From NCBI RefSeq assembly GCF_007280415.1, contig NZ_VKKU01000001.1, forward strand, positions 496,001 to 560,000: 64,000 nucleotides of DNA, given 5' to 3'. Shown piece after piece: positions 1,992-21,432 of the stretch. A program made the position numbers and the translations under genes. Source of the stretch: Sphingorhabdus contaminans (GTDB lineage Bacteria; Pseudomonadota; Alphaproteobacteria; Sphingomonadales; Sphingomonadaceae). The stretch's first letter is position 1; every line of letters begins with the position of its first letter. A model generated the notes under the pieces. The model was not told where the DNA came from. It ran no database searches and was given only the letters and a program-made list of their open reading frames with translations.

Positions 1992-2816
1992 TTATCCCAA
2001 TTGCCGGGCGAGAGCACACCATTCGGGGATCGTGACCGTTTCCGGACGGCGGTCTGCCGCTATTCCGGCTGGTTCCAGTGCATCCAGTGCGCCGGGAACA
2101 GCTTTCAGGCTTTGCCGCAGCATTTTGCGGCGCTGTCCAAATGCAGCGGCAGTCAGTTTTTCGAGTACAGCCATCTTCACACCCTCGGGCGCCTCACCGG
2201 GGGTAATATGCACAACTGCGGACATAACCTTTGGCGGCGGGGTAAAGGCCGATCGGTGGACGGGCATCGCGATTTTGGCATGGGATCGCCACTGGGCCAA
2301 TATGGCCAGCCGTCCATATGCATCGCTTGCCGCAGGGGCGACAATCCGGTCTGCAACCTCGCGCTGGAACATCAGGGTCAGCGAAAGCCATTCGGGCGGC
2401 CATGTGTCGCCGCCAAGCCAGCCGACGGCAAGCGCAGTGCCCACATTATAGGGAAGGTTGGACAGGATATGGAATGGCCCGCCTATTTCCTTCGCCGGAT
2501 CGATCTTCAGGGCATCGCCTTCAATTACCCGCAACTGTCCGGGGAAAGCCTCCGCCAATTCGGCGAGCGCGGGCAAGCACCGGTGGTCTCGCTCAACGGC
2601 CAGCACATTGGCACCGGCGCGCAACAGGGCGCGGGTCAATCCGCCGGGACCGGGGCCGACTTCATAAACATTCTGTCCCTTGAGCGACCCGGGGATGGCG
2701 GCAATGCGGTCAAGGAGCTGTTCGTCGAACAGGAAATTCTGACCCAGCGCCTTGCTCGCGGACAGGCCGTGGCGGGCAATGACATCCCGAAGCGGGGGCA
2801 GGAGAGGCCGGGTCAT
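1992..2816 (-). CDS. rsmA: 16S rRNA (adenine1518/1519-N6)-dimethyltransferase
   Basis: RsmA/KsgA dimethylates two adjacent adenines in the 3' hairpin of 16S rRNA late in 30S assembly. The 274-residue product starts [18 protein letters not shown] and shows [10 protein letters not shown] near the N-terminus, the SAM-binding motif [21 protein letters not shown] (acidic ribose-binding loop) and the NLPYNVGT catalytic motif. The reading frame is open further upstream inside pdxA, but homology begins at the ATG at 2816, which overlaps the pdxA stop by four bases (ATGA). Last gene of the lptD-surA-pdxA-rsmA operon. Confidence 0.96.
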
Positions 2817-3826
2817 GCCGCGTCGGCAGCTTGGCGGTTCAACGCCGCCATTTCCGCCATCTTGATGGCTGCAATCATGGAATGGGGCATCGCTATATTC
2901 TGGCCCGCAATGCCAAAGGCTGTGCCATGATCGGGGGATGTACGCACCACCGGCAGGCCCAATGTGATGTTGACGGCATCGTGGAAATATAACGTCTTCA
3001 GGGGAATCAGTGCCTGATCGTGATAGGCGCACAGGGCGGCGTCATAATGTGAGCGTGCCTCTGCATGGAACATCGTGTCGGCCGACAGGGGGCCAACCAC
3101 ATCAAAACCTTCGCTGCGGATCTGCGCGATGGCAGGGCCGAAAATGTCGATCTCCTCACGGCCCATATTGCCCGATTCGCCTGCATGGGGATTGAAACCG
3201 GCCACCGCCAGGCGCGGTTTTTCGATCCCGAAATTGCGTTGCAGCCCTTTCGCTGTGGCGCGCAGCCGCTGCCGTATCAGGCGCCCATCCAGTTTGGATG
3301 CGACCGACGCAAGCGGGATATGTGTCGTCATCGGCACGACGCGCAGGTCGGGGCCGGCAAGCATCATGACCGCATTATTCTTGGATACACCACAGCGTTC
3401 GGCGATGAATTCGGTCTGTCCGGGATGGGTGAAGCCGACGGCATAAAGCTGGGTTTTTGATACTGGCCCTGTGACCAAGGCCGAGGCACTGCCCGCGCGG
3501 GCGAAACCTATGGCCATTTCCAATGCCTGATAGGCGCAATGCGCACCATCCAGATCAGGCTCGCCCGGTTTGACGGAGATGCAGCTATGCACCTCAATCA
3601 CCGGAAGCGCCGAATCAAAATGGGCAAAGCTGTCGGCGGGGTTGTCGATCTTCACGACCGGGCCGTTCCAATGCGGCGCAAAGCAGCCCACATCGCCGAT
3701 GGCGAAAAACGGCGGCAGCTTTTCGCGGTTCCGCGCTTCCCATGCCTTGCCGATGATTTCCGGTCCTATGCCCGCCGGGTCGCCGACCGAAATCGCCAAC
3801 GGCAGGTCAAGTCGCCGTGACGGCAT
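2813..3826 (-). CDS. pdxA: 4-hydroxythreonine-4-phosphate dehydrogenase PdxA
   Basis: NAD-dependent oxidation of 4-phosphohydroxy-L-threonine in DXP-dependent pyridoxal phosphate synthesis. The 337 residues fit the family. Seen: [13 protein letters not shown] at the N-terminus, [21 protein letters not shown] with a metal-binding His, [10 protein letters not shown] with a second His, and [11 protein letters not shown] with the third. The start ATG shares one base with the surA stop (TGATG), and the stop overlaps rsmA, so it is translationally coupled on both sides. Its place between surA and rsmA is a conserved proteobacterial arrangement. Confidence 0.97.
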
Positions 3827-5175
3827 CAGTTATATTCGATGACTGCGTCGCGGCGGAGGTCGCGCAAGTAGATTCGCGCACGTTTGTTGACCCGTTCCTC
3901 TTCCAAACGCGACATGATCTCGTCAAAGGATTCCGAAGCGGCTTCCTGCGGCGCGTCGCGGCCGCACATGACAAAAACGCGAACGCCATCTTCCAGCGAC
4001 CCATAAGGCGGTGTCGACTGGCCAACCTGAAGATCGAGCATCACCTGCTGCAACGGGGCAGGCAGGTCGCGGATCTTGATGCCGTCGCGGTTCACCACAT
4101 CGGCATTTAACTGGCGTGCCATTTCATCGGCGGCACCGCAGCCATTGATCTTGCTGGTTTCTTCGCTGAACCGTTTCACCAGCGGCGCAACCTGCGCCTC
4201 GGTCGTGCCGGCGGGGAAGGTGATCGCAATCTGCTTCAGGCTGAGAACCGAATCGCGTGGATCCGATGTCGCCACCTGGCGGCGATCAATCAGAAGCAGG
4301 ATCGAAATGCCGCCCGGCGAGGGAACGGCCTGGATTTCATTGGCCCGCATATTGGCCGCTGCGGTCGCAAGCGAGGGCGGCAATTGGGCGAGCGACAACC
4401 AGCCAAGATCGCCGCCGACCGAAGCGGTCGATGCTTCCGAAAACTGGCGGGCATAGGCGACAAAATTGCCGCCCTGACGCAACTGGTCCATGATCTTGCG
4501 GGCATTTTCGGTCACCGCAGGCATGGTTTCGGGTGTGGCCGACAAATAGATTTCACCGATACGATATTCGGTGGTGCCTTTGGTCGCCTTGATACGTTCG
4601 ATGATCGCGTTGACTTCATCGTCGCTGACATTGGCCGAAGGACGCACATTGCGCGACAACAGCCGGCTCCACGACAATTCGCCTTTGATCTGCCGCTTCA
4701 GCGTGGCGACCGACGAACCGATGGAAACGAGATATTTTTCAACTTCACTCGCCGGACGGTTGAAATTCTGTTGCGCGACGCGGTCGAAATACTGGTTCAC
4801 CTCGGCATCGGTGACTTCGATTTCATTCGCGGCTGCTTCCTGGATCTGAAGTGTTTCGTCGATCAGGTTGGTCAGGATCTGGGCACGGAAACGTGCAACT
4901 TCTTCCGGGGGAAGCTGGTTGTTATTGGCAGCGACGATCAGGGCGAGACGGTGGTCAATATCGGTACCGGTGATGATTTCGCCATTTACCTGCGCGGTGG
5001 CGCGGCGCACGTTGGGATCGTTTTTGCCGTAAAGGGTCTGGCCATCGGGAATGTCGAGACGCGCTTCTGGCGATGTTTCATCCGAAACAGTTTGCGCGAT
5101 CGAAGGTGTCAATGCTGTGGCAGTTGCCAGCAAAGCCGCAATGGAAAAGCGCTTGGAAAACTTCATTGATGACAA
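3826..5175 (-). CDS. surA: Periplasmic peptidyl-prolyl isomerase/chaperone SurA
   Basis: Chaperone for unfolded outer-membrane proteins, including LptD encoded just upstream. The 449-residue product has a Sec signal peptide (MKFSKRFSIAALLATA..., cleavage likely after PSIAQ), a SurA N-terminal chaperone region (NGEIITGTDIDHRLALIV and ILTNLIDETLQIQEA), and a parvulin domain with IGEIYLSATPE and FSEASTASVGGDLGWL. A second, more diverged parvulin-like stretch follows (SLKQIAITFPAGTTEAQ). The start may be the first ATG (5175) or the one three codons on (5166); only the latter begins directly with the signal peptide. The lptD-surA gap of 93 bases shows no terminator. Confidence 0.94.
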   Translation of the reverse strand: MSSMKFSKRFSIAALLATATALTPSIAQTVSDETSPEARLDIPDGQTLYGKNDPNVRRATAQVNGEIITGTDIDHRLALIVAANNNQLPPEEVARFRAQILTNLIDETLQIQEAAANEIEVTDAEVNQYFDRVAQQNFNRPASEVEKYLVSIGSSVATLKRQIKGELSWSRLLSRNVRPSANVSDDEVNAIIERIKATKGTTEYRIGEIYLSATPETMPAVTENARKIMDQLRQGGNFVAYARQFSEASTASVGGDLGWLSLAQLPPSLATAAANMRANEIQAVPSPGGISILLLIDRRQVATSDPRDSVLSLKQIAITFPAGTTEAQVAPLVKRFSEETSKINGCGAADEMARQLNADVVNRDGIKIRDLPAPLQQVMLDLQVGQSTPPYGSLEDGVRVFVMCGRDAPQEAASESFDEIMSRLEEERVNKRARIYLRDLRRDAVIEYN

Positions 5176-20763: not shown

Positions 20764-20918
20764 GAGCCCCTCTCCAACTCCGCCTAGGCCTTGCGGCCAA
20801 GGCTCCGTATCCTCTCCCCTAAAGGGGAGAGGCGAGGCACATATCCCTCTCCCCTTCAGGGGAGAGGTACGCAGTCTTACGGCTTTAGCCGTTAGACGCA
20901 GTGGAGATGGGGAGGTCG
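20764..20918. repeat. Palindromic repeat element, copy A (155 bp)
   Basis: First of two direct copies flanking the DUF559 gene. It begins GAGCCCCTCTCCAACTCCGC and ends GGAGATGGGGAGGTCG; its ends are imperfect inverted repeats (CCCCTCTCCAA against TGGAGATGGGG). Inside are two strong hairpins (CTCTCCCCTAAAGGGGAGAG and CCTCTCCCCTTCAGGGGAG...) and GGCTTTAGCC/GGCCTTGCGGCC palindromes. The 35 bases at 20787-20821 are missing from copy B. Confidence 0.88.
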
Positions 20919-20970
20919 GGCACTGCCATTCCGCTATTGAACTATCTCACAGTCGAGCTATCTATAAATA

Positions 20971-21336
20971 GTGCGAAATCAAACTCTTATCTTAAGAGCA
21001 AAGCAAATGCGTCGCGAGGCGACTCCGCCCGAACGTGCCTTGTGGGCATGTTTGAAATCAGACCAACTTCTTGGCGCGAAGTTTCGCCGGCAGGTTGTGA
21101 TAGGCCCCTATATCGCAGATTTTGCATGCCGGTCGCCTGTGAAACTGGTTGTTGAACTCGACGGCGAGTCTCATGGCGCGCAAACTGAATATGACGCAAG
21201 GCGCACACACTATCTTGAGCAACTAGGATATCGTGTCTTGCGTTTTTCCAATCCGGATGTGTTCCGCAATAGGGAGGATGTGCTGGCGACGATAGCACTA
21301 AATCTCACCGCCGAGCCCCTCTCCAACTCCGCCTAA
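20971..21336 (+). CDS. DUF559 (Vsr-like endonuclease fold) protein
   Basis: 121 residues from a GTG start at 20971 (an ATG at 21007 would remove 12 residues). Seen: ILRAKQMRREATPPERALW, the DUF559 opening; FRRQVVIGPYIADFACR and LVVELDGESHGAQTEYDARR, which hold the Asp/Glu-x-Asp residues of the PD-(D/E)XK-like Vsr fold; and YRVLRFSNPDVFRNREDVL at the end. The last six codons and the TAA stop lie inside repeat copy B, so the repeat supplies the C-terminus. Substrate and role are unknown; members are widespread next to short repeats. No partner methylase is visible. Confidence 0.88.
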   Translation: MRNQTLILRAKQMRREATPPERALWACLKSDQLLGAKFRRQVVIGPYIADFACRSPVKLVVELDGESHGAQTEYDARRTHYLEQLGYRVLRFSNPDVFRNREDVLATIALNLTAEPLSNSA

Positions 21337-21432
21337 AGGGGAGAGACGAGGCATATTTCCCTCTCCCCTTCAGGGGAGAGGTACGCAGTCTTACGGCTTT
21401 AGCCGTTAGACGCAGTGGAGAGGGGGAGGTCG
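21313..21432. repeat. Palindromic repeat element, copy B (120 bp)
   Basis: Direct copy of the element at 20764-20918, nearly identical apart from a 35-base internal deletion bounded by the microhomology CCTA and a few substitutions. It contains the hairpin CTCTCCCCTTCAGGGGAGAG, and its ends CCCCTCTCCAA / TGGAGAGGGGG form a terminal inverted repeat. It overlaps the last 24 bases of the DUF559 gene and ends 12 bases before the greB stop. Confidence 0.88.

Follow-up and report, generated by a model that had tools for sequence, protein, structure and literature searches.

The DUF559 nuclease gene of the window (the whole 64,000-nucleotide stretch of Sphingorhabdus contaminans DNA analysed here) lies between two inverted halves, R and L, of a dispersed palindromic repeat, and this arrangement is general among high-scoring DUF559 genes of Pseudomonadota. 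We consider the locus to be, more probably than not, a nuclease-only mobile cassette, R-DUF559-L, with a way of working similar to that of REPIN-RAYT elements. The class to which the repeat belongs is already known, its DUF559 partner previously was not: none of the PMC papers found on DUF559 or ycjD connects them with repeats, and a prior description elsewhere is possible.

The DUF559 locus and its repeat

An earlier note on this DNA had reported that two direct copies of one element, 155 and 120 bp long, flank a DUF559 gene, and both copies and the gene (126.6 bits to PF04480, the DUF559 profile, against a cut-off of 20.6) are present as described. The copies are 95% identical across a common block of 106 bp and share an identical 23-bp left end; as the note had observed, they differ mainly by a single 35-bp deletion, placed by the alignment between two CCTA tetranucleotides. 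The open reading frame has a GTG start, and copy B does supply its last codons and TAA stop. The strong internal hairpins were likewise borne out, copy A folding at -49.1 kcal/mol as against a shuffled mean of -25.4 (z -7.4). Terminal inverted repeats are present, that on the right-hand side of copy A (GGAGATGGGG) being imperfect.

What had to be abandoned is the unit as drawn, a gene between two direct copies. A DNA search of the own genome shows that each copy consists of an L half (1-69) and an R half (82-155) in inverted orientation. The gene has the R of copy A on one side and the L of copy B on the other, so that the unit is naturally drawn as R-gene-L; it resembles a pair of direct copies because further outer L and R halves surround it. 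The features of the locus are as follows.

20764-20918, + strand: copy A, whole element, 155 bp
20764-20832, + strand: L half of copy A (outer half); half-copies match as query 1-69; inner hairpin GGCCTTGCGGCC and CCTCTCCCCTAAAGGGGAGAGG
20845-20918, + strand: R half of copy A, left end of the R-gene-L unit; half-copies match as query 82-155; inverted relative of L; followed by spacer GGTCGGGCAC as in gene-less copies
20971-21336, + strand: DUF559 nuclease gene, 121 aa, intact; PF04480 match, E 4.8e-37
21313-21432, + strand: copy B, whole element, 120 bp, same orientation as copy A
21313-21346, + strand: L half of copy B, shortened by the 35-bp deletion; forms the right end of the R-gene-L unit; seen in the alignment and as a direct repeat; supplies the final codons and stop of the gene
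21359-21432, + strand: R half of copy B (outer half); direct repeat, 95% identical to copy A
20845-21346 (approximate ends), + strand: proposed mobile unit R-DUF559-L, about 500 bp; order as in R-spacer-L copies of the own genome and in 52 units (412-582 bp) of other genomes

The residues conserved among related sequences, putative active-site ones included, are present in the window protein, in which E62 and D64 are the candidate active-site positions. A profile search of the unit matched no gene family other than DUF559, and neither a DDE transposase gene nor a Y1/HUH gene was found there. The gene has no confident match among the anti-phage defence models of PADLOC, the best (E 0.0027) being partial and to a large multidomain protein, and the own genome has no match to PF03852 (Vsr). 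All Rfam matches fell below the gathering scores; the weak similarity of 20809-20870 and 21359-21431 to Whalefall-1 RNA (E 0.03 and 0.09) raises the question whether that RNA family is possibly a repeat of such a kind.

Genome-wide counts rest on DNA and pattern searches. In the own genome the element has 51 matches, many of which represent a single place through its two halves or its two strands; E-values outside the window locus go down to 1e-58, and the element is thus not a chance sequence. About 12 other places hold the gene-less order R, short spacer, L, with the conserved spacer GGTCGGGCACGAACCTCACCGTCGGAGCCCC and variants of it; a few of these are degraded or reduced to one half. The window gene is preceded by R and then GGTCGGGCAC and followed by CTCACCGCCGAGCCCC and then L, so that cassette and gene-less copies have their spacer edges in common and the gene takes up the spacer position of the gene-less element.

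Two kinds of observation in this genome are the most awkward for the cassette reading and are counted against it. Apart from the window locus, full-length L-R copies were found only as two direct pairs, both around DUF559-free segments: one (G000:C1:172837-173628) brackets a gene for a 132-aa predicted secreted protein, the other (G000:C1:278231-281123; L033, ~2230-5120) a small secreted protein gene together with a response regulator/histidine kinase pair. The genome's second DUF559 gene (G000:C1:1152700-1153017; L034, ~2100-2800) has a different, GC-rich inverted palindrome on both sides, and a test of dispersal found no further copy of this repeat anywhere in the genome. Its product carries RVPVSAVLG in place of the conserved C-terminal RFWNNDVL, and the gene may be a decaying copy.

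Recurrence and occupancy of the unit

Bracketing was scored as the similarity between the 350 bp on each side of a gene, with a threshold of at least 20. The DUF559 genes sampled were high-scoring ones. Similar repeats bracket 53 of the 60 from the family Sphingomonadaceae, as against 3 of 436 neighbouring genes. The corresponding figures are 20/34 against 3/280 in other alphaproteobacteria and 15/26 against 4/179 in other Pseudomonadota. Isolated control genes, those separated from either neighbour by 80 nt or more, were bracketed in 1 of 70, 3 of 47 and 1 of 28 cases, respectively, and true Vsr genes (PF03852) in none of 27. The multiple flanked copies that the earlier note had looked to for support do therefore exist across genomes. 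The pattern it had named as refuting, a genome-wide repeat unlinked to DUF559, is seen in part: most copies are gene-less, but DUF559 genes are bracketed far more often than others.

The flanking repeats are palindromic and, in the family, mostly inverted and mostly within ~100 bp of the domain. Across 149 genomes the number of hairpins climbs with the number of DUF559 genes (rho 0.63, a value uncorrected for phylogeny). One genome, G093, is a clear exception to this correlation, with 77 DUF559-type hairpins and no DUF559 detected; enzyme loss or an assembly gap are possible explanations, and we count the case against the cassette. The similarity of the repeats tracks that of their nucleases across genomes (0/1000 permutations), and DUF559 paralogues within one genome carry unrelated repeats, from which it follows that repeat type is tied to the nuclease and not to the host.

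In other genomes, 52 units delimited by their inner hairpins measured 412-582 bp (median 452). Target duplications of at least 4 nt accompany 2 of them, against a shuffled mean of 3.7, hence no excess, and no constant tag, GTAG included, adjoins their ends. A unit of genome G134 is present whole in related genomes, the match stopping at the repeats, and gene-less R-x-L pairs with the same ends occur in genomes that hold units of this type; the G134 locus itself was rejected for an orthologous empty-site test, its flanks being unlinked in relatives. Ten homologous units had no flank similarity to one another by tblastx, with the exception of two copies in G520 that share some tens of bp directly at their edges. 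The shared flank in G520 lies on both sides of the two DUF559 units (L319, L321), and in that genome the unit may be part of a larger repeated segment.

Occupancy of the window locus was followed by searching 45 congeneric genomes with GreB; 30 greB loci were read, a few of them short or with another neighbour. Among these 30, a DUF559 gene stands between ppk2 and greB in the own genome only; ppk2 lies directly beside greB in most of the remaining loci. The locus of G019 holds neither the gene nor the full element. In G003, the nearest relative, a single full element is present, and directly to its left lies a stretch matching the 3' end of the window gene, a match whose score was equalled by none of 19,828 random windows. 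Because this DUF559 remnant adjoins its repeat, G003 was rejected as a clean one-repeat empty site; its sequence points to the decay of a once occupied site and not to a pristine empty one. Occupancy at ppk2-greB is thus variable, as the note had anticipated: present in the own genome, decayed in G003, absent from the other greB loci read.

A second site of variable occupancy lies in a conserved operon. In Sphingomonas parapaucimobilis YK209 (NZ_CP155753.1; L333, 2465-2875) a DUF559 unit separates sufB from sufC, splitting the suf operon; another DUF559 unit of this strain lies between a GatB/YqeY gene and dnaG (L334). Of 30 sufB-sufC loci in a sample of a related genus, 13 hold DUF559 between R and L, that of G495 (L350) has R-36bp-L with no gene at this position, and that of G565 (L359) has kept the right end alone. 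Several loci have neither gene nor repeat. Some of the remaining ones hold unrelated small genes, which suggests that the site is generally permissive. The empty sites expected by the earlier note are accordingly represented by the gene-less R-x-L at sufB-sufC and not by G003, and its idea of a selfish nuclease cassette gains support from the flanked copies, the variable occupancy and this gene-less version at a gene-bearing site.

Repeat class, E. coli ycjD and the enzyme

In many DUF559 flanks the sequence is CCCTCTCCC-loop-GGGAGAGGG-TTGGGG-GAGGG, exactly or nearly so. This general motif matches, as judged from its sequence, what Holder et al. in 2015 called the intrastrand triplex motif (PMC4666352). 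That motif was described from more than 260 genomes, with 23 copies in E. coli, as intergenic, multi-copy and sometimes in inverted pairs, and no mobility gene was reported nearby (PMC4666352); the repeat class of the note's candidate undescribed mobile unit is therefore one described before. Most family flanks, and the motif downstream of E. coli ycjD, have a pyrimidine-purine hairpin with a third purine tract after it. In the window element a second hairpin separates the first from the third purine tract, so that the window repeat is a longer variant of the pattern. On sequence grounds, an assignment of the window repeats to the CGTC-tagged REPs was rejected.

The E. coli DUF559 gene, ycjD, is present in 3365 of 5426 genomes. 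Its 3' end runs into a degenerate triplex motif (L274, L281) and another motif lies ~130 bp downstream; the upstream motif is absent and ycjD occupies one site. It looks like an old, fixed copy, and both the single site and the missing upstream motif weigh against the cassette reading. The sapF-fabI interval was uninformative as an empty site, since ycjD-less strains hold an efflux operon there (PMC12817139). In one E. coli strain (L280) an IS1 lies inside ycjD.

DUF559/YcjD is a widespread nuclease family that, to our knowledge, has no settled role. YcjD had been assigned to the PD-(D/E)XK superfamily by 2005 (PMC1189080). The AlphaFold2 model of the window protein (pLDDT 90.7) has its closest Foldseek match in 3hrl, a DUF559 structure from a gonococcal endonuclease-like protein, followed by the homing endonuclease I-Bth0305I (3r3p; E 5.2e-4, TM 0.62/0.75) and, more weakly, by Vsr, so that a homing-endonuclease fold is predicted. 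One DUF559 gene, located in an intein, was reported to be an EDxHD homing endonuclease (PMC9403480). In Caulobacter the DUF559 protein VsrA has enough activity in vivo to account for the SOS response of a methyltransferase mutant, and a connection with the repair of mismatches at methylated sites was made (PMC12907096). This last link is also counted against the cassette.

Mechanism, alternatives and related elements

In the mechanism that we propose, the ends of the cassette are two inverted copies of a hairpin-plus-purine-tract repeat, and its sole gene encodes a nuclease with a predicted Vsr/homing-endonuclease fold. What this nuclease most likely recognises is its own repeat, in the form of a triplex or of an extruded hairpin; it would cut at the element ends, whereupon host repair or replication restart would copy the element to a new place; alternatively, the gene could be copied into gene-less R-x-L sites, with R and L as homology arms. 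The nuclease would also move, in trans, the gene-less R-x-L copies, as non-autonomous derivatives of the cassette; RAYTs are believed to do the same for REPINs. Should repeats and DUF559 belong together, the questions of what spreads the repeats and what the nuclease cuts would merge into one testable pair, and a nuclease domain alone would be able to sustain a REPIN-like element. A laboratory model is at hand in E. coli K-12, which has ycjD and 23 copies of the motif. A broader proposal, to which we give slightly less than even credence, is that DUF559 proteins are the missing mobilisers of intrastrand-triplex repeats in Pseudomonadota and perhaps beyond, forming a class of elements with a lone nuclease of ~110 residues that acts on hairpin or triplex DNA and with many gene-less derivatives, those of E. 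coli K-12 included.

The main rival is homing into gene-less sites, and both routes may operate together. In its pure form the nuclease cuts only gene-less R-x-L, the gene enters by homologous repair with R and L as arms, and the repeats had been spread earlier by something else. The predicted fold close to I-Bth0305I, the intein-borne EDxHD homing endonuclease (PMC9403480), the absence of target duplications, the related species that carry either the gene unit or a gene-less R-x-L at sufB-sufC, and the spacer edges common to cassette and gene-less copies are all in keeping with it; by itself, however, it leaves unexplained both the dispersal of gene-less R-x-L and the fact that repeat type follows nuclease clade, and we regard it as unlikely. 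A host role is less probable still. DUF559 would then be a repair or structure-resolving nuclease for hairpins or mismatches that adjoins repeats where it is needed, or the repeats would regulate or terminate its transcript, and the modelled Vsr-like fold, the SOS response caused by Caulobacter VsrA (PMC12907096) and the stability of the hairpins would fit; yet the whole unit occurs at unrelated sites, most relatives lack it at the window locus, an inverted repeat lies at either end of it, and true Vsr genes are unbracketed.

That another enzyme moves the repeats, DUF559 being cargo caught between two of them, is suggested by the two pairs of the same element that bracket other genes in the own genome, but in unrelated genera it is DUF559 that is bracketed and repeat type is tied to the DUF559 clade, which makes a passenger very improbable. 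Bracketing by chance, with repeats so common between genes that any gene is often enclosed, might be expected where, as in this family, intergenic regions are rich in palindromic repeats; it is already contradicted by the same-locus controls, isolated genes included, of which only ~1-6% are bracketed, and we give it next to no credence.

Among known systems, the nuclease-only cassette resembles REPIN/REP-RAYT (REPtron) elements, which likewise place one gene between inverted palindromic repeats, have dispersed gene-less inverted doublets and a repeat type tied to the enzyme clade, and make no target duplication. It is not a member of that group, because the defining tyrosine transposase is absent: the window enzyme is a PD-(D/E)XK-type nuclease whereas RAYT is a Y1/HUH tyrosine transposase, and REP ends bear a GTAG tag whereas DUF559 units have no constant one. 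With the TM/TMECO repeats (PMC4666352) it shares the CCCTCTCCC-loop-GGGAGAGGG hairpin plus third purine tract, the intergenic, multi-copy and sometimes inversely paired occurrence and the E. coli motif copies at ycjD, but in the window the third tract is set off from the hairpin by a second hairpin. EDxHD/Vsr-fold homing endonuclease genes of the I-Bth0305I type resemble it in fold and in being free-standing nuclease genes of variable occupancy; the DUF559 protein, however, is short, without an extra DNA-binding domain, and its gene lies between inverted repeats and not in an intron or intein. The mismatch endonuclease Vsr (PF03852) has a related PD-(D/E)XK-type fold, but its genes are unbracketed by repeats (0/27). 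DDE insertion sequences differ in that the DUF559 unit has neither an excess of target-site duplications nor a DDE transposase gene.

The CGTC-tagged REPs (PMC3733652) are also palindromic, mostly alphaproteobacterial and without a known transposase, but have another sequence, and the CCCTGAA-type palindromes that relatives hold at the same intergenic site were never seen to bracket DUF559 in the loci read. Palindromes of the form CCCTGAACTTGTTTCAGGG, resembling CGTC REPs (PMC3733652), lie in the ppk2-greB space of several relatives (L329; L038 in G019; L053 in G005). With palindromes in the same intergenic position in relatives, the ppk2-greB space is a recurrent target of repeats.
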